The position numbers and the translations under genes were made by a program. Below are positions 14,436-24,318 of a DNA stretch of 41,238 bases, one piece after another (positions within the stretch are counted from its first letter, which is position 1; each line of letters starts with the position of its first letter). Source of the stretch: a virus; IMG/VR virus record IMGVR_UViG_3300032205_000009, positions 1 to 41,238 of that record; one strand, given 5' to 3'. The notes below the pieces were generated by a model. The model made no database searches, was not told the origin of the DNA, and saw only the letters and a program-made list of their open reading frames with translations.

Positions 14436-14996
14436 ATGCTGTTCACCCTTGAGCAGTTCTTCAAGCTCAACTTCCGGGTCGGGATCGTCGAGGCTGACGT
14501 GAACGACCCGCACGTCGCGCTGACCGTGAACGACAACCTGTGCAGGTTCTTCGACCGCAGTCGCGAGGAGTTGATGAGGCCGGGGATCTTCGCGAGCATC
14601 TCCGACCCCGACGATCTGGAGCGCGAGGAGCCGATGATGCGTGCCCTGCTCGGGGGGGAGCGCGACAACTACGGGCTCGTCAAGCGCTACACACGCCCCG
14701 ACGGCGAAACCATTCGGGGGTATGTGAACGTTGAACTGATACGTGACGAGGGTGGCGATCCGGCAAAGACGGTCGGCATGGTCGTCGAGGTGAGAGACCT
14801 CGATGATCTGCGCGATCTGCTACTGCAGCGTCAGCTGCTCGCGCAGGCGCTCGTCGAGGCCGACACGAAGCTCGCGCTCGCGGCGCTGCGGATCACCGAG
14901 GAGGAGCACGTCACCCGGCGCAAGCTCGCGCACGACCTCGGCGTCGGGATCTCCACCGTGCAGGGCTGGATCGACCGTGGGCGTCGCCTGAGATAG
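14436..14996 (+). CDS. PAS-domain helix-turn-helix regulator (186 aa)
   Basis: Residues about 10-115 form a PAS fold: FFKLNFRVGIVEAD, LTVNDNLCRFFDRSREEL, then FASISDPDDLEREEPMMRAL, YTRPDGETIRGYVNVELI and GMVVEVRD. A helical linker (118-150) leads to a C-terminal HTH, RRKLAHDLGVGISTVQGWIDRG. PAS domains sense small molecules, redox state or light and are rare in phage regulators. No cofactor residue can be assigned. It faces the XRE gene and precedes a second HTH protein, so I infer a sensory input into early control. No strong Shine-Dalgarno is visible at the ATG. Confidence 0.8.
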   Translation: MLFTLEQFFKLNFRVGIVEADVNDPHVALTVNDNLCRFFDRSREELMRPGIFASISDPDDLEREEPMMRALLGGERDNYGLVKRYTRPDGETIRGYVNVELIRDEGGDPAKTVGMVVEVRDLDDLRDLLLQRQLLAQALVEADTKLALAALRITEEEHVTRRKLAHDLGVGISTVQGWIDRGRRLR

Positions 14997-15038: not shown

Positions 15039-15812
15039 ATGCCGCCGAACCTCGCAGACAGGGTGCACCGTGTTCGGGTGCTGCTCGACACGCTGAACGA
15101 TCCGTATCCGACCCCCAAGGGCCACCTTCGACCAGACGCAGGACCGGCACCGTCGCGCTATGTGCCCTGCCTCACCTGCCAGCGGCAAGGCTGGCTGAAA
15201 CGGCGCGGCCGGCTGATCCTCTGCCTCGCCTGCGACGGGACCGGCGACCGCCGCCGCCGGCACGACGAGGAACCCTGGGACGCCTACCTGAACGTGCCCC
15301 TAGGAGACGCTGAGCCGGTCGCACGGGAGCCGATGAGCCTGCGGGCGATAGAGGAGCAGGTGGCAGAGCAGGAAGGCCGCTACGAGGCTCTCAGCTACGG
15401 CTGGGAGCGTCTGCAGCGCGCCTACCAGGCCCACGGCTCCTACCGCGAGCTGCGCCGTCAGCTGGAGTGGTTGAGGGCCAGTGCGCCGCGGCGGCACCGT
15501 CTGGTGCGCACCGTTCTGATCGAGCACGAACCCCGCACGCTCGACGCTCGCGCCGCGCTCGACTTGGAGCTGGGTGTCGTCGCGCTCGCGCTCCGGATGC
15601 GCTCGGTCCGCGTCCCGCCGTGGCTGATGGAGCACGCCGCCGCCGACGAACGGCAACAGACGATCGCCGCGCTCGCCGCGCTCGGGCTCCGGGCCGGCGA
15701 GATCGCACGTCGGCTCGGGATCCCGAAGGAAGTGGTGCGGCGACGGCTCAAAGGGGTGCCGATGCGAGCGGTAGACTCTGGGCAGGCTGGAATCCCCCTC
15801 GGGGCGATGTGA
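15039..15812 (+). CDS. Zinc-finger and HTH protein (257 aa)
   Basis: An N-terminal zinc site of DnaJ type: Cys44, Cys47, Cys62, Cys65 in CLTCQRQGW and LCLACDGTG. A long helical centre follows (RAIEEQVAEQEGRYEAL). The C-terminal HTH is LAALGLRAGEIARRLGIPKEVVRRRLKG, of the sigma-region-4/Fis-like style. GGAGG lies 3 nt before the ATG. Co-directional with the PAS-HTH gene 42 nt upstream, probably one transcript. Could be a transcription regulator or a small-terminase-like protein; regulator is favoured by context. Confidence 0.7.
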   Translation: MPPNLADRVHRVRVLLDTLNDPYPTPKGHLRPDAGPAPSRYVPCLTCQRQGWLKRRGRLILCLACDGTGDRRRRHDEEPWDAYLNVPLGDAEPVAREPMSLRAIEEQVAEQEGRYEALSYGWERLQRAYQAHGSYRELRRQLEWLRASAPRRHRLVRTVLIEHEPRTLDARAALDLELGVVALALRMRSVRVPPWLMEHAAADERQQTIAALAALGLRAGEIARRLGIPKEVVRRRLKGVPMRAVDSGQAGIPLGAM

Positions 15813-15859: not shown

Positions 15860-16048
15860 CTAGAGACCCGGTGCGTGGTTGCAGCTGCCCGGATCGCCTG
15901 GGTACAACTCCTCTCTGCAGTCGCTGCGATAGATCGGCCCGGTGTCGTCGTTACCGTTGTGCGTGTGGCTGATCTGGATCGCCAGCGCTCCGACGGCGAC
16001 GGCGAGCAGCAGGATCGCTGCGGCGAGCACCGCGACGATCCACTTCAC
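15860..16048 (-). CDS. Small membrane-anchored protein (62 aa)
   Basis: N-terminal transmembrane helix (WIVAVLAAAILLLAVAVGAL) and a short polar exterior domain with two Cys (SDCREELYPGDPGSC) that may form a disulfide. GTG start overlaps the upstream stop (GTGA). Last gene of the leftward accessory operon. Could be a lysogeny surface factor or superinfection-exclusion protein; this is inference. Confidence 0.6.
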   Translation of the reverse strand: MKWIVAVLAAAILLLAVAVGALAIQISHTHNGNDDTGPIYRSDCREELYPGDPGSCNHAPGL

Positions 16049-16329
16049 GCCGCCACCTTCTTCGCCCACGCCTCGATGTGCGCGGCGTCCCAGACGGGAC
16101 CGCACGCCAGCACCGCGAGCGGCGTCGGTGCGGTGCCCCGCGTGTAGCGCTGCTGGAACGTCCGGTACTGCAGACCGGCCAGCTGCGCCGCCTCGGTGAT
16201 GCCCACTAGCGTCATCTCCGGCTTTGGGTCCGCGTCGAGTTCGACGGCGAGCCGCTCGATCCACTCGGCGCACTCGTCCAGCTCCTGGCGTGTCTTGCGC
16301 AACCGTTGCGCAAGCTGTCGCTTGGTCAT
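16045..16329 (-). CDS. MerR/excisionase-like DNA-binding protein (94 aa)
   Basis: N-terminal charged helix, then an HTH_17/AlpA-like wing: VGITEAAQLAGLQYRTFQQR, ending GPVWDAAHIEAWAKK. Such proteins serve as excisionases or small regulators. ATG at 16329 has AAGGAGG upstream, within leader copy 1. It is far from the integrase, so excisionase function is not certain. Confidence 0.75.
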   Translation of the reverse strand: MTKRQLAQRLRKTRQELDECAEWIERLAVELDADPKPEMTLVGITEAAQLAGLQYRTFQQRYTRGTAPTPLAVLACGPVWDAAHIEAWAKKVAA

Positions 16330-16374
16330 GTGTTCCTCCTTGTCGGTTGACCGAGGGGAGCGCTTTAGCGCTCC
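16330..16374 (-). promoter_or_regulatory. Leader repeat, copy 1
   Basis: In transcript order: hairpin GGAGCGC-TAAA-GCGCTCC (16374-16357), then CCTCGGTCAACCGAC (16356-16342), then AAGGAGGA, then ATG at 16329. The upstream gene's TAA stop lies in the hairpin loop. Confidence 0.8.
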
Positions 16375-16610
16375 TCCCACCTGACTTCGTGCCCGAGTAC
16401 CTTGATGCGATCCGCGATCTCCATCGCTTTGACGGCGATGGGGTGGTCGGCAGGCCAGTACTCGGGCTCGCTCTCGACGCTGTCTGCGTTGAAGAAGCCA
16501 TCAGGCTCCTGTGCTCCGACATCGTCGGAGTGCGTGACGCGCAGGATCTCGCCCGTCTCGGTGTCCACTTCGACGCCAAGCCATACGCTGTAGTCGATCG
16601 TGACTTTCAT
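16365..16610 (-). CDS. Acidic hypothetical protein (81 aa)
   Basis: MKVTIDYSVWLGVEVDTETG suggests a small beta sheet; the end ADRIKVLGHEVRWEER is charged. The start is set by AAGGAGAGAACC directly before ATG. Its TAA stop falls in the loop of the next gene's leader hairpin. Not recognised. Confidence 0.7.
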   Translation of the reverse strand: MKVTIDYSVWLGVEVDTETGEILRVTHSDDVGAQEPDGFFNADSVESEPEYWPADHPIAVKAMEIADRIKVLGHEVRWEER

Positions 16611-16659
16611 GGTTCTCTCCTTCGTTGGTTGACCGAGGTGCCGAGGTCATGTGACCTCG
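16611..16659 (-). promoter_or_regulatory. Leader repeat, copy 2
   Basis: Hairpin CGAGGTC/GACCTCG (16642-16659) with the upstream TGA stop inside it, then CCTCGGTCAACCAAC (16638-16624), GAAGGAGAGAACC and ATG at 16610. Confidence 0.8.
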
Positions 16660-16841
16660 ACGCCTGTGGCGTAGAACGTGCCGCCGCGAAAGTCGCGGAG
16701 CGCGATCCGTTCGCCGTTCGTGCGATCCAGCCGGATGATTCGCCGGCCGAAAACGCCCTTGCTGTGCTTGCGTGCGACGGCGATCTTGCAGCTCGTCGCG
16801 ACGACCTGATCGCCATGCAGGACGATGTAGGTGCGCTTCAC
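16647..16841 (-). CDS. Small basic protein (64 aa)
   Basis: Beta-rich sequence KRTYIVLHGDQVVATS then IIRLDRTNGERIALRDF and FYATGVEVT; resembles a small OB/SH3-like barrel by pattern only. GTG start overlaps the upstream stop (GTGA). Stop codon lies in the leader-2 hairpin. Not recognised. Confidence 0.65.
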   Translation of the reverse strand: MKRTYIVLHGDQVVATSCKIAVARKHSKGVFGRRIIRLDRTNGERIALRDFRGGTFYATGVEVT

Positions 16842-16999
16842 GCCGTCGCCTCGTCCATCACATAAATCCACGCCTCGACGGCGTAGCCGGGTGGGTCTTC
16901 AAGCCGAACGACGCGGTCATGTGACTCGATCTCGACCGCCTCTATGCCCTCTTCGCGCAGCTTCCGCCGCGCGGCTTTGCGTGCTTCGGCGTCGGTCAT
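16838..16999 (-). CDS. Small protein (53 aa)
   Basis: Starts MTDAEARKAARRKLREEG and continues EAVEIESHDRVVRLEDPPG. ATG overlaps the preceding stop (ATGA) and its own TGA overlaps the next GTG, so both ends fit the operon. Function unknown. Confidence 0.65.
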   Translation of the reverse strand: MTDAEARKAARRKLREEGIEAVEIESHDRVVRLEDPPGYAVEAWIYVMDEATA

Positions 17000-17331
17000 G
17001 CCTCCACCTGATCTGACGCCGTCTCGATCCAGGCGCTAGCGATCTCCACCCAGTCGACCTTGTCGAGCGCGTAGCCGAGCAGATCGGCGGCGAAGGACGC
17101 GCCCAGGTCGGGCTCAAGCTCGTCACACACCCACTCTTTGAGCATCTCGCTCACCGCGTAGAGGGGCGACTGATGCGTCCAGGTTTCCTCGCTCTCCGCC
17201 GCTCGCTCGCTCTCGATCGTTGCGGTGACCCTCTCCGTCGCTGCGTTGTACAGACCCTCGTCGTTCGTGAGCCACAGGTTGACGCACCACGTCGGGTAGT
17301 TCGTCCAGCCGTTGTAGCCGGTGTCGTTCAT
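16996..17331 (-). CDS. Conserved NYPTW-type phage protein (111 aa)
   Basis: N-terminal signature GYNGWTNYPTWCVNLWLTND is one I recognise from many phage hypothetical proteins of unknown function. The rest is acidic and helical (SEMLKEWVCDELEPDL). AAGGAGGAACG precedes the ATG, within leader copy 3. Function unknown. Confidence 0.75.
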   Translation of the reverse strand: MNDTGYNGWTNYPTWCVNLWLTNDEGLYNAATERVTATIESERAAESEETWTHQSPLYAVSEMLKEWVCDELEPDLGASFAADLLGYALDKVDWVEIASAWIETASDQVEA

Positions 17332-17375
17332 CGTTCCTCCTTGTTGAATTGACCGAGGTGCCCACTTGCGTGGGC
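17332..17375 (-). promoter_or_regulatory. Leader repeat, copy 3
   Basis: Hairpin GCCCAC-GCAA-GTGGGC (17360-17375), then CCTCGGTCAATTCAAC (17358-17343), AAGGAGGAACG and ATG at 17331. The upstream stop is 7 nt before the hairpin. Confidence 0.8.
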
Positions 17376-17381
17376 CTCCTC

Positions 17382-17525
17382 TCAGGTTTTCGCGAGCATC
17401 GTCTTCAGAACATCTGCCGCTTCCAGGTAGAGCGCGGCCGACTCGGGCTCGTCGTCGGCGTCGGCAGCTTCGGCGTTGATCTCCAGCTGCTCGATCGCGA
17501 TCTCGCATGCGTCGATGAGGTTCAT
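17382..17525 (-). CDS. Small acidic protein (47 aa)
   Basis: Helical and very acidic: MNLIDACEIAIEQLEINAEA, then ADADDEPESAALYLEAADVL. A ribosome-binding site AAGGAGAGAACC lies before the ATG in leader copy 4. Function unknown; acidic phage microproteins can act as DNA mimics or inhibitors, but nothing here shows it. Confidence 0.65.
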   Translation of the reverse strand: MNLIDACEIAIEQLEINAEAADADDEPESAALYLEAADVLKTMLAKT

Positions 17526-17577
17526 GGTTCTCTCCTTTGTTGGATTGACCGAGGTGCCGCGCAGTGATGCGCGGCAC
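17526..17577 (-). promoter_or_regulatory. Leader repeat, copy 4
   Basis: Ten-bp perfect hairpin GTGCCGCGCA-TCAC-TGCGCGGCAC (17554-17577), then CCTCGGTCAATCCAAC (17554-17539), AAAGGAGAGAACC and ATG at 17525. Its stem nearly matches that of copy 5. Confidence 0.85.
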
Positions 17578-17581
17578 CGTG

Positions 17582-17809
17582 CTATGGGCGATCGGCAGCG
17601 ACGACGGCGTCGTGCGCGGCGTTGAACAATTCCTCGCCCGAGAGCAAGGTGTAGTGGCGTGATTCGCAGAGCGCCTCAAAGACGACCTGCACGGCGACGT
17701 TTTGGCCGAGGCCGAGATAGCCCTTGGCTGTGGTGACGATGTGCGGGAATTGAGCGGCGAGTGTCTCGCGCTGCCCTTCCCGCCCTTCGGGTGCGAACTC
17801 GATGGGCAT
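17582..17809 (-). CDS. Hypothetical protein (75 aa)
   Basis: MPIEFAPEGREGQRETLAAQ, then a helix-strand pattern (NVAVQVVFEALCESRHY) and EELFNAAHDAVVAADRP. Start set by GAGAGGAAACTACACCC before ATG. Not recognised. Confidence 0.65.
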   Translation of the reverse strand: MPIEFAPEGREGQRETLAAQFPHIVTTAKGYLGLGQNVAVQVVFEALCESRHYTLLSGEELFNAAHDAVVAADRP

Positions 17810-17862
17810 GGGTGTAGTTTCCTCTCGTTGGTTGACCGAGGTGCCGCGCATCACTGCGCGGC
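17810..17862 (-). promoter_or_regulatory. Leader repeat, copy 5
   Basis: Hairpin GCCGCGCA-GTGA-TGCGCGGC (17843-17862) with the upstream TGA stop in its loop, then CCTCGGTCAACCAAC (17841-17827), GAGAGGAA and ATG at 17809. Confidence 0.85.
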
Positions 17863-18030
17863 GTACCCCTCTTCGATCAGTGCGCTGACGAGCGGCTCCA
17901 CGTAGCGGGGCTCGCAGACAAGCGCGCCGCCGAACCAGTGCGCGTCGGTGTGCTCGCGTAGCCAGCTGCGCACGTCGGCAGTGAGCGGCTGAATCAGCAC
18001 GATCGAGCCGTGATCCTCGACGTTGAACAT
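17851..18030 (-). CDS. Hypothetical protein (59 aa)
   Basis: Compact alpha/beta pattern: MFNVEDHGSIVLIQPLTADV, SWLREHTDAHWFGGALVCEP, VEPLVSALIEEGY. ATG lies in TGATG with the preceding stop; a GTG one codon upstream is an alternative. Stop codon is in the leader-5 hairpin loop. Confidence 0.65.
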   Translation of the reverse strand: MFNVEDHGSIVLIQPLTADVRSWLREHTDAHWFGGALVCEPRYVEPLVSALIEEGYAAQ

Positions 18031-18224
18031 CACGACACCCGCTCTTCCGCGAGCAGGTCGCGATAGACCGCAGGTGCGTTCGCGTACAGCGTTACGTTGT
18101 TGCCGAAGTCGAGCACGACGTAGTCCTCGTCCTCGGTCTCGCCCTCCACGAACTCGACGCGCGTGCAGGTCTTGCCCAGCATTTTCTCGGTGGCCTCGTC
18201 GATGCCGATCTGAACACGATCCAT
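18030..18224 (-). CDS. Acidic hypothetical protein (64 aa)
   Basis: MDRVQIGIDEATEKMLGKTC then EFVEGETEDEDYVVLDFGNN. A beta-rich acidic protein, starting after GAAGGAGGGTATCACCC. Not recognised. Confidence 0.65.
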   Translation of the reverse strand: MDRVQIGIDEATEKMLGKTCTRVEFVEGETEDEDYVVLDFGNNVTLYANAPAVYRDLLAEERVS

Positions 18225-18280
18225 GGGTGATACCCTCCTTCTGTTGGATTGACCGAGGGAGGGCCGCGTAAGCGGCCCTC
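18225..18280 (-). promoter_or_regulatory. Leader repeat, copy 6
   Basis: Nine-bp hairpin GAGGGCCGC-TTAC-GCGGCCCTC (18259-18280), then CCTCGGTCAATCCAAC (18258-18243), GAAGGAGGG and ATG at 18224. A GAAAAAGA stretch lies on its 5' side. Confidence 0.85.
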
Positions 18281-18306
18281 TCTTTTTCAGGCGTGCCGGA
18301 TCGTGT

Positions 18307-18516
18307 TCACTCCTTCGTGTCGAGTCGGAGGACGCCCACGCGCACCGCGTCGTCCGTCAGGTACAGATCCTCGGTGCGATCGCTTGTGTCAATGTCAGCG
18401 CCGCTCTCGATGAGAGTGGCGCGGTACGCCGCGAGCGCTGCGTCGTAGGTCGGATATGGCCCTGTCATCGGACAGGGGTCGTCATAGCCGTTGTAGATCA
18501 GGTAGAAGCTGTCCAT
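18307..18516 (-). CDS. Small hypothetical protein (69 aa)
   Basis: MDSFYLIYNGYDDPCPMTGP then PTYDAALAAYRATLIESGAD, and VRVGVLRLDTKE. AAAGGAGAATCACCCC precedes the ATG. The YPTYDAAL...Y block recurs in small phage proteins, but no function is known to me. Confidence 0.65.
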   Translation of the reverse strand: MDSFYLIYNGYDDPCPMTGPYPTYDAALAAYRATLIESGADIDTSDRTEDLYLTDDAVRVGVLRLDTKE

Positions 18517-18566
18517 GGGGTGATTCTCCTTTGTGTTGGATTTGACCAAGGACCGCCGGAGCGGTC
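18517..18566 (-). promoter_or_regulatory. Leader repeat, copy 7 (variant)
   Basis: Hairpin GACCGC-TCCG-GCGGTC (18551-18566) adjacent to the upstream TAA stop, then CCTTGGTCAAATCCAAC (one extra A, G to T change), AAAGGAGAA and ATG at 18516. Confidence 0.8.
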
Positions 18567-18929
18567 TTACATCACGTAGAGAGCGCCGTCGTCGCCGACG
18601 TAGAGATCGCTCTCGCCGTACGGCTTCGTGAGCGCCGTCAGGCGGTCGCCGACCTCGCCGTGACCGCGATCCCAGAATCCGGCGCCGTGGCCGTTCCGGG
18701 TCAGCCAGAAGTCGTGGCCCAGCTGTTCTGGCGTCCACGCCGACCAGTCGAGCCCTTCGCGGTCGAGCAGGTCGAGAAAGTCGCGACACTCGGCCGCCAT
18801 CGTCTCGGTGGCCTCATCGGCGATGTCTCCAGGGCCATAGACCGCGTCGAGCGGCTCGCCGTCTTCGTCCGTCGAAGACCAGAGAGCGCACGTCACGTAA
18901 CCATCAATCATCGTTTCTGCAATGTCCAT
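18567..18929 (-). CDS. Conserved GHDFWLTRNGHGAGF phage protein (120 aa)
   Basis: N-terminal MDIAETMIDGYVTCALWSST, then EPLDAVYGPGDI, and the signature LGHDFWLTRNGHGAGFWDRG near residue 85. I know this signature from many phages and plasmids; its function is unknown. The protein is acidic and soluble. GAAGGAGAACGAA precedes the ATG. Confidence 0.8.
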   Translation of the reverse strand: MDIAETMIDGYVTCALWSSTDEDGEPLDAVYGPGDIADEATETMAAECRDFLDLLDREGLDWSAWTPEQLGHDFWLTRNGHGAGFWDRGHGEVGDRLTALTKPYGESDLYVGDDGALYVM

Positions 18930-18976
18930 TTCGTTCTCCTTCGTTGGATTGACCGAGAGGGCCTCGTTAAGAGGCC
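18930..18976 (-). promoter_or_regulatory. Leader repeat, copy 8
   Basis: Hairpin GGCCTC-TTAAC-GAGGCC (18960-18976) with the upstream TAA stop in the loop, then CTCGGTCAATCCAAC (18957-18943), GAAGGAGAA and ATG at 18929. Confidence 0.85.
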
Positions 18977-19212
18977 TCGTGAATCTCGAATGAGCGTCCG
19001 AGATCGTGTGTACGGGCGGTCTGGGTGACGAATGCCGAGTCAAGCTCGCGCGACCAGTGAACCTGGAACGGCTCTTCGATCTCGTCAAGCCATTCGCAGT
19101 GGCGTTCCACTTCGTCTTTCAGGTATTCGAGCGCATCCGCGCGATCTTCGAAGAGGGGCGGGTCGTCGTCTTCCGGCAGATAGCCGGGAGTGTTGATTAC
19201 GACTACGAACAT
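18967..19212 (-). CDS. Acidic hypothetical protein (81 aa)
   Basis: MFVVVINTPGYLPEDDDPPL, then ALEYLKDEVERHCEWLDEIE and FQVHWSRELDSAFV. Ferredoxin-like pattern by eye. GAAGGAGAACAACC precedes the ATG. Stop is in the leader-8 hairpin loop. Not recognised. Confidence 0.7.
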   Translation of the reverse strand: MFVVVINTPGYLPEDDDPPLFEDRADALEYLKDEVERHCEWLDEIEEPFQVHWSRELDSAFVTQTARTHDLGRSFEIHEAS

Positions 19213-19261
19213 GGTTGTTCTCCTTCAGTTGGGATTGACCAAGGCCCGGATGCGCTCCGGG
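19213..19261 (-). promoter_or_regulatory. Leader repeat, copy 9 (variant)
   Basis: Hairpin CCCGGA-GCGCA-TCCGGG (19245-19261), then CCTTGGTCAATCCCAAC (19244-19228), GAAGGAGAA and ATG at 19212. The upstream TAG is 10 nt before the hairpin. Confidence 0.8.
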
Positions 19262-19271
19262 TGGGCGTGGA

Positions 19272-19472
19272 CTAGCGCGTAACGTCTTCGACGCGCCCGT
19301 CCGGGTGGACGAGCGTGAAGACCTTCGGGCCGTCAGGTGAGTGGATGTCGCTCTGGTAGAGCAGGCCGTCCTCGTCCTCGCGCTTGAGGAAGGTCTGGTA
19401 GACGCCCTGCCAGCTGCGGCCGACGAACTCGCTGATCGCAGCGGCGGACACGTACGTGCGCGGTGTTTCCAA
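19272..19472 (-). CDS. Small HTH-like protein (66 aa), first gene of the accessory operon
   Basis: TTG at 19472 is taken as start because AAGGAGA sits 5-6 nt upstream; no ATG or GTG is near. Sequence ETPRTYVSAAAISEFVGRSW then GVYQTFLKREDEDGLLYQSD and FTLVHPDGRVEDVTR. The middle could be a short HTH, which would suit an operon regulator. Not recognised with certainty. Confidence 0.6.
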   Translation of the reverse strand: METPRTYVSAAAISEFVGRSWQGVYQTFLKREDEDGLLYQSDIHSPDGPKVFTLVHPDGRVEDVTR

Positions 19473-19551
19473 GATGCTCTCCTTCGTGAGTGTGGATTGA
19501 CCGAATCGGCGGTGAGAAGCTCGCACGGGCATGACTCCGCGCTTCACCGCC
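19473..19551 (-). promoter_or_regulatory. Leader repeat, copy 10 (operon head)
   Basis: Larger hairpin GGCGGTGA/TCACCGCC (19508-19515 with 19544-19551), then TTCGGTCAATCCACAC (diverged end), GAAGGAGA and TTG at 19472. No gene stop is near, so here the hairpin is part of the 5' untranslated leader. Confidence 0.6.
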
Positions 19552-19855
19552 GCCTTTCGATCCTTCGGTCGGACTGGCATGCAGGAGCGCGCAGGATCGA
19601 CGCACAAGGCGTCCCGGCCATCGCCGGTCATCAGGGTCAACGCGTTCCACCAGGGTCTCACCGACCGCTAGGAGAAGGATCAGGGTGCTCACCGCTCCAC
19701 ACGATGCCCTCGCGACCTAGGCCGATCCTTGCGTCCCCGCAGGGCCGCTGGTGGCTAGCTTCCTCGTTGCCCACACGATCACTTAGACCGTGCGGTGAGG
19801 GAGTCTGTCCCTGTCGCCCATCCCGATTCACCTGCTCGATTCCTGCGACTCCCCC

Positions 19856-19883
19856 ACAGTAGCACGGGGAGACAGCATGTCAA
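19856..19883 (-). promoter_or_regulatory. Leftward promoter of the accessory operon
   Basis: On the minus strand TTGACA (19883-19878), 16-bp spacer, TACTGT (19861-19856): the best sigma70-type match in the window. Transcription would start near 19849, giving a leader of about 375 nt before the first gene. In 19552-19848 I see no credible gene; two in-frame extensions there lack ribosome-binding sites. Confidence 0.65.
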
Positions 19884-19923
19884 GCCCCAGGAGACACAAT
19901 CACTCGATCGAGGGAGGCCAGAA

Positions 19924-20478
19924 CTGAGCGACGAAGCCAACCAAGCGCTCGTCCTGTGCGTCCCCGACACAGCTCTCGTCCCTGACGGCTCGACCTTCTA
20001 CGACGGCCCAGACGACAAGCGCTGCAGGCTGATCAAGCCCGACGGCGAACGCTGCAAAGCCACCAGAGTCAGGCGCTACGGTCTCTGCTCAGGCCACGCC
20101 GGGACGGGCGGCATCATGCGCGACCCAGCGGGGGCAGCCAAGCTAGCCAACGCCGAGCGGAGACGCCGCAGCGCCGCCAGGGTCTCGCTAGGGATCAGCG
20201 CACGCAGAGCCGCGCAACCGCTGCAGCAGAGCCGGATGCAGGCACAACTACGTGCCAACGAGGTCGCTGCAGCGCTCATCGACGCGCCCCTCGACGACCC
20301 CGAAGTGGGCACGATCCCGAGGCAGCAGGCGATGATCCGAGCCATGGAACTGCTGTACCCGCAGGTGCACGCCAGCCTCGACATGACGCTGCCCGACGAG
20401 CCCGAGCAGCTGGGCACGATGGGCTGGCAGGAGATGCAGGCGCTGGCCCAGCAGCTGGTGACCAGCAGTGACCAGTGA
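19924..20478 (+). CDS. Zinc-binding protein, possible small terminase subunit (184 aa)
   Basis: An N-terminal zinc motif, CRLIKPDGERCKATRVRRYG followed by LCSGHAG (Cys, Cys, Cys, His), precedes basic helices (NAERRRRSAARVSLG) and an acidic C-terminal half. CxxxxxxGxxC...CxxH motifs of this style often occur in actinophage proteins next to terminases. CTG at 19924 is the likeliest start: GGGAGG lies 6 nt upstream and the product begins Met-Ser-Asp. The only other start is a GTG 43 codons upstream, inside the opposing promoter. The large terminase is 4.4 kb away, so the terminase role is uncertain. Confidence 0.65.
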   Translation: MSDEANQALVLCVPDTALVPDGSTFYDGPDDKRCRLIKPDGERCKATRVRRYGLCSGHAGTGGIMRDPAGAAKLANAERRRRSAARVSLGISARRAAQPLQQSRMQAQLRANEVAAALIDAPLDDPEVGTIPRQQAMIRAMELLYPQVHASLDMTLPDEPEQLGTMGWQEMQALAQQLVTSSDQ

Positions 20479-22810: not shown

Positions 22811-22989
22811 TGCGCAAGAAGGCCAACACGAAGGTGCACACGGTGATGTCGGAGTTCAAGCGCGGGCAGTTGCATTCGGGCTCGAAGAAGGGCTCGAAGG
22901 TCACTTCGCGCCAGCAGGCGATCGCGATCGCCTTGTCGGAGGCCGGCAAATCGAAGCCGAAGCCGAAGGCGAGGAAGAAGAGGCGCTGA
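22810..22989 (+). CDS. DUF6496-like basic protein (59 aa)
   Basis: HTVMSEFKRGQLHSGSKKGS then TSRQQAIAIALSEAGK and a Lys/Arg tail. This matches what I recall of the DUF6496 pattern found in phages. ATG lies in TGATG with the preceding stop. Strong positive charge suggests DNA or capsid-lumen contact. Confidence 0.75.
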   Translation: MRKKANTKVHTVMSEFKRGQLHSGSKKGSKVTSRQQAIAIALSEAGKSKPKPKARKKRR

Positions 22990-23561
22990 TGCCGCCTCGG
23001 CCCGTTCCCGCGAGCAGGCCACCTCCATCGGGGCGAAGCTGGATCGTTCCGGGCACTGTCGCGAACGAGCCGCCGCCACCGTGGAAACCGCCGCCGCCGA
23101 GTCTTGTCGAGGTAACGCCTGCGATCAGGCAGATTTGGCAGGCGACAGGCTTCAAAGGCCCGATGCCCACCCTTTACAAGGATCCGAGCATCCTGCTCCG
23201 CGCTCTGGGCACGGCCCCCTGGCCGAGGATCCCCTCCCAGAGCCGGGTCATGTTGTCACCTGAGATGGTGGCGGGTTTGCAAACGCTCGCGCTCCCCCGC
23301 AACCGCGACCTGGAGGCGGTCAAGGTGCTGCTGCATGAATTCGCACACACCCGGCAGCCGATGACGCTGAACCGGCCGACCTTCGAGGGCGGCGCAGAGG
23401 CGTTCGCGCAGCAGCATCTGATGGACGCGCTGCGCAGGCTGCACATCGACCGGTTCGACCCGACGAACAGCTGGCCCAGCTACGCCTATCCGCAGTTCAC
23501 CGACAGGATGAGGCAGTCGGGCTGGAACGCTGTCAACCGCGGACAGTTCGGGAGGCGTTAG
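22989..23561 (+). CDS. Zincin-like metallopeptidase (190 aa)
   Basis: Has the zinc-protease helix VKVLLHEFAHTRQP (HEFAH at 116-120) and a downstream EGGAEAFAQ helix that can give the third ligand (Glu133 or Glu137). The N-terminus is Pro-rich and disordered. The ATG overlaps the previous stop (TGATG). Position before terminase and capsid genes makes prohead maturation conceivable, though usual prohead proteases are serine types next to the capsid gene. Could also be a virion or host-directed peptidase. Confidence 0.75.
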   Translation: MPPRPVPASRPPPSGRSWIVPGTVANEPPPPWKPPPPSLVEVTPAIRQIWQATGFKGPMPTLYKDPSILLRALGTAPWPRIPSQSRVMLSPEMVAGLQTLALPRNRDLEAVKVLLHEFAHTRQPMTLNRPTFEGGAEAFAQQHLMDALRRLHIDRFDPTNSWPSYAYPQFTDRMRQSGWNAVNRGQFGRR

Positions 23562-23563
23562 AG

Positions 23564-23815
23564 ATGCAGATGCGCGTCTTGATCGCGCAGGTGCCGGAAC
23601 GGGACGTGCTGCTCGCGGAGCTGCTCCAGATCGTCGCCCGCCATCCGGGCAACGACGTCTTCGTGGTCGCGATCGAGACGCCCTGGGGGCAGCGGGCGAT
23701 GCGCACGGCAAGGACGGTCGACTCCTGGGACCGGCGGCTCTGGTCGGAGATCGAGGACCTGCTCGGCGAGGAGCTGCGGCGCGCCGACGACTGGGACGAC
23801 GGCGAGGATCTCTAG
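23564..23815 (+). CDS. Hypothetical protein (83 aa)
   Basis: MQMRVLIAQVPERDVLLAEL, FVVAIETPWGQRAM, then an acidic helix ending RADDWDDGEDL. GGAGG lies about 9 nt before the ATG. Not recognised. Confidence 0.65.
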   Translation: MQMRVLIAQVPERDVLLAELLQIVARHPGNDVFVVAIETPWGQRAMRTARTVDSWDRRLWSEIEDLLGEELRRADDWDDGEDL

Positions 23816-23828
23816 TCAAGGAGGAGTA

Positions 23829-24077
23829 ATGCCGAAGAAGTCACAAGCCCCGCCGGCCCCGAACCTGTCCGGTGTCTTCCCGAAGAACCCGACGTTCAAG
23901 GGCCGCACCGACGTGGGCGGCCAGTACAGGACCACGCCGGCTCCCTCGCCGCCTGCGGCGAAGCGGCGACCGAGGCCACGTCAGCCGGCGCTCGACCTAG
24001 CTCCGAGCGTGCGCGCGCCGAAGAAACAGCGGCCGGCGGCGAAGCAGGCGCCGCACGGCGGCTGGTACACGCGCTAG
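23829..24077 (+). CDS. Basic Pro-rich protein (82 aa)
   Basis: Low-complexity and positively charged (PAAKRRPRPRQPAL, RAPKKQRPAAKQ), probably disordered. AAGGAGGAGTA precedes the ATG. Possibly a DNA-associated head protein; unproven. Confidence 0.65.
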   Translation: MPKKSQAPPAPNLSGVFPKNPTFKGRTDVGGQYRTTPAPSPPAAKRRPRPRQPALDLAPSVRAPKKQRPAAKQAPHGGWYTR

Positions 24078-24123
24078 CGGAAACAGCCCTATATATAAGG
24101 TCAGGATCCGAGGGTCGGGTTCT

Positions 24124-24318
24124 TTACGCGCGCACGACGAGAACGGTGGCGAGCGGCCGGCCGTGCACGGTGAGCTCGATCCAGCGCTCGCCGCCCTCGG
24201 AGCGGTGCCCGTGCACCTCGATCTCGTCGTAGCCGTCGGCCCAGTTGCGCAGCGCGGCCTTCACCCAACCCTCGACATCCCATGCAACGGGGCTCTCTTC
24301 GTGAGCCTGAATGGACAT
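24124..24318 (-). CDS. Reverse-strand small protein, moron-like (64 aa)
   Basis: MSIQAHEESPVAWDVEGWVK then EIEVHGHRSEGGERWIELTV. It lies alone against the late operon with its own promoter 11 nt upstream, the usual form of a moron that may be expressed in the lysogen. A weak stem CCGA-CCC-TCGG follows the stop on its strand. Between it and the preceding plus-strand gene is an AT-rich near-palindrome at 24088-24100. Function unknown. Confidence 0.6.
   Translation of the reverse strand: MSIQAHEESPVAWDVEGWVKAALRNWADGYDEIEVHGHRSEGGERWIELTVHGRPLATVLVVRA

Follow-up and report, generated by a model that had tools for sequence, protein, structure and literature searches.

What reads the short leader that recurs ten times before small genes in the IMG/VR virus record IMGVR_UViG_3300032205_000009? 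The window, by which we mean the whole stretch of 41,238 nucleotides (nt) of this record, comes from an apparently temperate, tailed phage that encodes TerL, a portal protein, an SU10-like capsid protein and a tyrosine integrase. The ten leaders all lie on the minus strand within positions 16330-19551 and share one order, a hairpin, then a GGTCAA tag, a Shine-Dalgarno sequence (SD) and a start codon, and every copy described in an earlier note on this DNA was located. That note had considered a repressor operator or the target of an RNA-binding phage protein; both proposals lost ground, since an RNA core in the leader of this operon is complementary to the tag. The sequence evidence thus supports a site that acts as RNA, and its reader, the RNA in the operon leader, is an element absent from the earlier interpretation. 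We consider it quite probable that a single hammerhead-like ribozyme, encoded in the 5' leader of the operon, has the ten leaders as its substrate halves. It also appears likely that this is a natural trans-acting, multi-target ribozyme of the hammerhead type, whose leader RNA would cut some ten leaders of the same operon and so release single-gene messages with no protein nuclease involved.

The operon's 5' leader (19650-19497, minus strand), about 150 nt upstream and partly beyond 16330-19551, holds a hammerhead core in the order UUGACC-CUGAUGA-hp1-hp2-P3-GAAA-stem III-UUC↓GGUCAA, the arrow marking the predicted cut. All its elements are on the minus strand. The guide UUGACC (19635..19640), the 5' strand of stem I and the complement of the tag GGUCAA, is directly followed by the core segment CUGAUGA (19628..19634), and this in turn by hairpin hp1 (CCGGC-GAUG-GCCGG, 19614..19627) and the contiguous hairpin hp2 (GACGC-CUUGU-GCGUC, 19599..19613). 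Helix P3 pairs GAUCC at 19598-19594 with GGAUC at 19563-19559, within a region (19559..19598) that includes the 3' strand of P0, a helix of CGCG at 19591-19588 with CGCG at 19644-19641 that forms a pseudoknot with P3. The second core segment, GAAA (positions 12-15.1), lies at 19555..19558, and the leader's stem III hairpin (CGGCGGUGA...UCACCGCCG), identified by fold and covariation analysis, at 19507..19552. The leader ends in copy 1, in which UUC↓GGUCAA (19497..19505, predicted cut 19503/19502, gene start 19472) supplies the cis cleavage triplet and the 3' strand of stem I. In the minimum free energy fold of the leader, stems I and III, hp1, hp2 and P3 all form.

Each of 12 array phages has one leader of this kind, guide-CUGA[U/C]GA-hp1-hp2-P3-GAA[A/U]-stem III-NUH-tag, facing many targets. 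Alignment of the first leaders leaves two segments invariant, CUGA-N-GA and CGAAA, which correspond to both core segments of the hammerhead. CUGANGA stands directly 3' of stem I in 12/12 leaders, aligned as CUGA[U/C]GA, and likewise in L305, L314 and L316, three further phages found via a flanking protein. Directly 5' of stem III, GAAA is present in 11/12; G024, L314 and L316 have GAAU and a changed partner base. Stem I, formed by the strand before CUGANGA and the strand after the cut, covaries among the 12 phages, as do P0, hp1, hp2 and P3. P0, in which sequence 5' of the guide pairs with the segment after P3a, has 6-11 base pairs (bp) in 11/12 phages and 4 bp in the window; because it was picked out by a search, part of its pairing is due to selection, though its position is the same throughout. 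A detector asking for a 5-nt guide, CTGANGA and at least four targets picks the array leaders plus two weaker extra matches, and the relatives G005 and G026, which lack such a leader, also lack this tag.

Leader and targets change together. In each of the 12 array phages the tag has its complement directly before CUGANGA (GACC/GGUC, GAUC/GAUC, GACU/AGUC or GGAA/UUCC), and guide and tag switch jointly, as UGACC/GGUCA, UGAUC/GAUCA, UGACU/AGUCA and GGAA/UUCC. Pairing was counted in the 84 non-first array copies, each against its own phage's leader. Positions 1.1, 1.2, 1.3 and 1.4 are paired in 84/84 copies, 15.1:16.1 in 83/84 (80 A-U, 3 U-A) and 15.2:16.2 likewise in 83/84 (68 G-C, 15 C-G). The Watson-Crick fraction is 0.969, against 0.750 when leaders are shuffled among phages, and none of 5000 shuffles reached the real value. 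Residue H17, immediately before the predicted cut, is C in 75 copies, U in 8, A in one and G in none; the triplets directly before the tag are CUC, CUU, UUC, GUC or similar, that is, NUH. This rule holds for 89/93 copies, the exceptions being one register-ambiguous copy and three CAC copies that are paired with GAAU: in G024, whose leader has GAAU, the array tags read CAC↓GGUCA, with CAC replacing CUC. The out-of-sample phages L314 and L316 repeat this, with GAAU and tags CAC, CAT or CAA↓GGUCAA. Where the guide is GGAA and the leader reads GAAACG, the tags are GUC↓UUCC, and out-of-sample L305 falls in the same GGAA class, with GUGGAA, GAAACG and tags GUC↓UUCCA. The array hairpins vary freely in their stems, yet they never fail to pair or to adjoin the cut site, as expected of stem III. 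Guide-tag pairing, covariation at 15.1 and 15.2, an H17 that is never G and the coupling of CAC to GAAU together make each copy look like a substrate half.

Could the leader RNA, whole or as the 5' fragment left by cis cleavage, simply pair with all tags and leave them uncut, as an antisense-type riboregulator whose core is active in cis at copy 1 and nowhere else? Guide-tag complementarity alone would fit this, and a short stem I without a canonical helix II makes efficient cutting in trans uncertain. Three features are not predicted by such a regulator, however: the way in which 16.1 and 16.2 of the downstream copies follow positions 15.1 and 15.2 of the leader, some 75 nt away from the guide; the absence of G at H17; and the hairpin that adjoins the cut site in every copy. 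We regard it as unlikely. Note that a search for antisense small RNAs with tag-complement 9-mers or longer gave nothing consistent; it missed the guide because this measures only 4-7 nt.

If the leader is a ribozyme, its RNA would fold P0, hp1, hp2, P3 and stem III around the CUGANGA...GAAA core, complete the junction with the tag of copy 1 and be cut there in cis. The guide strand could then pair with the tag of any downstream copy to form stem I, while A 15.1 and G 15.2 of the leader would bind the U and C shortly before the cut, these pairs stacking on the hairpin of the copy as stem III, and the cut would fall after the NUH triplet. Each cut would put a hairpin at the 3' end of the upstream gene's message and give the downstream gene a short 5' leader free of structure, GGUCAA-(C/A)n-SD-AUG; in this way one long early transcript would become a set of single-gene messages. 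The sequences themselves show the anatomy, the match of guide and tag, the core pairs that covary and one leader facing many targets. Cleavage by the leader RNA, in cis or in trans, is predicted here from pairing and covariation, and the trans nature of the reaction and its effect on stability and translation are to be read in the same conditional sense.

Several points weigh against this reading. The array phages are related, and the covariation rests on only about five independent changes (GAUC, GACU, GGAA, 15.2 G to C and 15.1 A to U), so that the shuffle p-values overstate its significance. With 4-7 bp in stem I, binding in trans may depend on a chaperone or on guide and tag being part of one transcript. 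The hairpin takes up 16.2 and 16.3 in many copies and would first have to release them, and the leader's own stem III competes with the hairpin of the copy. The helix II pair 10.1-11.1 is absent, with C/A opposite C in 12/12 leaders, and Rfam hammerhead models gave no match at the gathering threshold or at E values up to 10. The place of the canonical helix II is occupied by three helices, hp1, hp2 and P3; these are contiguous without gaps, and a four-way junction may therefore replace it.

Within the window, the individual copies follow the same anatomy. The tag of copy 1 has its first G at 19502. CUU↓GGUCAA occurs in copy 2 (19235..19261; hairpin 19245-19261, first G of the tag 19240, gene 18967-19212) and copy 4 (18542..18566; hairpin 18551-18566, first G 18547, gene 18307-18516). 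CUC↓GGUCAA is found in copy 3 (18949..18976; hairpin 18960-18976, first G 18954, gene 18567-18929), copy 5 (18249..18280; hairpin 18259-18280, first G 18254, gene 18030-18224), copy 6 (17832..17862; hairpin 17843-17862, first G 17837, gene 17582-17809), copy 7 (17545..17578; hairpin 17553-17578, first G 17550, gene 17382-17525), copy 8 (17349..17375; hairpin 17360-17375, first G 17354, gene 16996-17331, DUF7249), copy 9 (16629..16661; hairpin 16640-16661, first G 16634, gene 16365-16610) and copy 10 (16347..16374; hairpin 16357-16374, first G 16352, gene 16045-16329). The near-constant block of the earlier note thus shrinks to GGTCAA, invariant in 10/10 copies and following N-T-[C/T]; no more than two of the ten have an exact copy of the whole 16-mer CCTCGGTCAATCCAAC. 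At up to three mismatches there are six matches against 0.40 expected, a number reached by none of 100 shuffles. A hairpin had been claimed for all ten copies as well. Nine have a perfect one of 6-11 bp ending 0-3 nt before the tag, and that of copy 1 is longer and different. The C/A-rich linker between tag and SD varies in length, which locks the tag to the hairpin and not to the SD. The untagged genes of the array (starts 18033, 16999, 16841 and 16048) each overlap the preceding gene by 4 nt, so that the leader stands before every non-overlapping start. The leader of the window's integrase gene carries half a tag only (AATCCAAC).

Related arrays were sought with TerL and portal searches, which gave 20 and 61 related loci, and whole contigs were screened for 8-mers enriched before SD-start sites. 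A first viral pattern scan returned 108 single matches, about the chance estimate, and a relaxed tag then found true arrays; a TTGAYCCTGAYGACCNGCG scan gave 11 matches, of which only three already known arrays were real. Many IMG/VR relatives carry an array of their own, with a tag that is constant inside one phage and different between phages: CTCGGTCAACC in G017, G021, G022, G030, G036 and G037, CTCGGTCACTC in G025, CTCGATCA[A/C] in G028, CTCAGTCATCC in G032, CTCGGTCACCC in G038, CACGGTCA in G024 and GTCTTCCC in G010 and G027. In 12 phages a stem of at least 5 bp ends 0-5 nt before the tag in 84/85 non-first copies. The inner 5-bp stems are 100% paired, against 54% with shuffled 3' arms, and comprise 45 distinct stems in 84 copies; as each was chosen as the best hairpin, the paired fraction is high by construction, and the shuffled-sequence control is fairer, with a mean score of 19.2 for real and 7.5 for shuffled sequences. 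These results bear out the proposal of the earlier note that the hairpin is conserved in structure, the block in sequence. Tetraloops of the array hairpins are GNRA in 16/52 and UNCG in 7/52. The upstream gene ends, in all arrays, with a stop codon placed either within the loop or shortly ahead of the hairpin and rarely in its 5' arm, a placement that may be partly compositional.

The same comparison bears on the possibility of an ordinary translation leader, in which the hairpin would shield the gene from its upstream neighbor, a C/A-rich linker would leave the SD accessible and tags would resemble each other because leaders were copied together with acquired genes, as recombination seams. 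A leader before every non-overlapping start and the C/A-rich linkers are what one would expect of it. Stems and genes differ, however, while some 9 nt are fixed and switch with the leader between phages, and conversion confined to 9 nt is implausible; we consider this explanation very improbable. In 31 homologous gene pairs from phages of different tag class every gene bears its own phage's tag, which makes the seam of the earlier note unlikely and, together with the constancy of the tag inside each phage, indicates that the tag is read by something phage-specific. Nor are the copies accounted for by duplication of one gene, a refuting possibility named in that note: tagged genes inside one phage are not homologous to each other, apart from one start-calling artefact in G017.

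A phage-specific reader might also be a protein, either a repressor that stops transcription in the manner of cluster A stoperators or a translation regulator. Many oriented copies, uniform inside a phage and differing between phages, do recall immunity-specific stoperators (PMC6550527, PMC9283540). In the window, however, all ten exact tags stand before SDs, in one orientation and beside a hairpin, and a site read by a protein would not change in step with the guide and GAAA/GAAU. The conserved flanking protein with CxxC pairs and a C-terminal helix-turn-helix (Zn/HTH) is rejected as tag reader, as it is present in G033 without an array and in G005 and G026 without this tag. We give the protein reading the least credence of all. 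In G033 the Zn/HTH gene adjoins the other flanking gene, B, and neither an array, nor a tag enriched in the 8-mer screen, nor a guide-CTGANGA leader was found there. Among other candidates, SD sequestration by CCUC, considered by eye, is not general; an integron attC-like site lacks a matching second core site; and pairing with the 16S 3' end (AUCCAAC) occurs in the window only, in the wrong order relative to the SD, and is missing from the other phages.

Some relatives deviate from the common pattern. In G024 (IMGVR_UViG_3300010376_000016; 43674-45394 and 1-1100) leader types CACGGTCACACAC and CACGGCTCAACAGGGGCCACACAC alternate along the array; in the latter an inserted small hairpin splits the stem I strand, and it is possibly a masked or switchable target. 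G005 (22858-24146), G026 (11379-9767, minus strand) and L313 have no CUGANGA leader and carry arrays with other repeats (GTCAGAACC; ACCACC; CACTCACTC), possibly a different control system in the same genomic slot. Outside the array, integrase genes of G027 (1757, minus strand), G025 (2579) and G005 (34341) have their own phage's tag in the leader, with a hairpin and GUC in G027 and CAC in place of NUH in G025.

The array of the window is antisense to, and lies between, two conserved plus-strand genes, Zn/HTH (15039..15812; 14 relatives) at one border and B (19795..20478, start codon uncertain; 15 relatives) at the other. Upstream of the operon leader a promoter-like TTGACA-16 nt-TACTGT, picked by eye at 19856..19883 on the minus strand, is the probable start of the array transcript. 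A PAS-domain protein with a possible C-terminal HTH (14436-14996, plus strand) adjoins the Zn/HTH gene and has no homologue among the relatives examined. The array of the window includes the DUF7249 gene, and array genes of G025 (34828) and G036 (10107) look ArdC-like from their sequence; this suggests an early anti-restriction or host-takeover set. A TerL profile search of 84,980 species genomes for the host gave only matches of 27-37%, and no cultured close relative was found.

If the proposal is correct, a natural phage ribozyme cuts a long early message into single-gene messages, a process without a known natural example, and early polycistronic mRNA processing would be a function for a prokaryotic hammerhead-type RNA. 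It would also be a structural variant of the hammerhead missed by current models, and a source of ready-made guide/target pairs of different specificity for processing synthetic operons. The sequence reveals the core and its many targets, and covariation at the level of single bases is seen in more than 12 phages, so that the processing function is directly testable.

Among known systems, the likeness to cluster K mycobacteriophages drawn in the earlier note holds for the layout: their start-associated sequences (SAS) are short oriented repeats just upstream of non-structural gene starts, with optional inverted repeats in the extended form (ESAS; PMC3203893). The SAS is, however, one fixed 13-mer (GGGATAGGAGCCC) that includes the SD, whereas the array tag varies between phages and sits 5' of the SD; ESAS arms are conserved in sequence and their pairing as RNA hairpins was judged unsupported (PMC3203893), and ESAS contain SigA-like promoters (PMC11373665). 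The closest layout is CR3/CR4 of cluster M, where the small genes of an array each have in front of them a stem-loop that varies and, at the SD, a conserved repeat (PMC7953290). That repeat, CACACGGAGAAGGGA, includes the SD, and the array tag differs from it in sequence and position. In the cluster M Mycobacterium phage Estes (L294, 35377-41846) leaders also resemble variable stem-loops followed by CACACGGAGAAGGGA; no guide-CUGANGA leader with matching targets was found in the 43.6 kb of Estes examined. Cluster A stoperators share multiple oriented sites of phage-specific sequence, but are DNA sites bound by a repressor, with neither hairpin nor tie to an RNA core. Trans-acting hammerheads in a 2017 review are artificial constructs, and the same review notes a persistent link of prokaryotic hammerheads with phage genomes and treats their roles as an open question (PMC6155905). 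No natural multi-target trans-acting hammerhead was found in the literature searched, whose coverage is partial and so no proof of absence. Compared with the natural cis-acting types I-III and the discontinuous hammerhead ribozyme of mammalian Clec2 3' untranslated regions, the phage leader has in common the CUGANGA and GAAA segments, stem I beside the cut, stem III, the NUH rule and the 15.1:16.1 pair. It differs in that hp1, hp2 and the P0/P3 pseudoknot replace helix II, in its compensated GAAU/NAH variants, undetected by Rfam like the rest, and in its division of labor, with one putatively catalytic leader for some ten separate substrate leaders.

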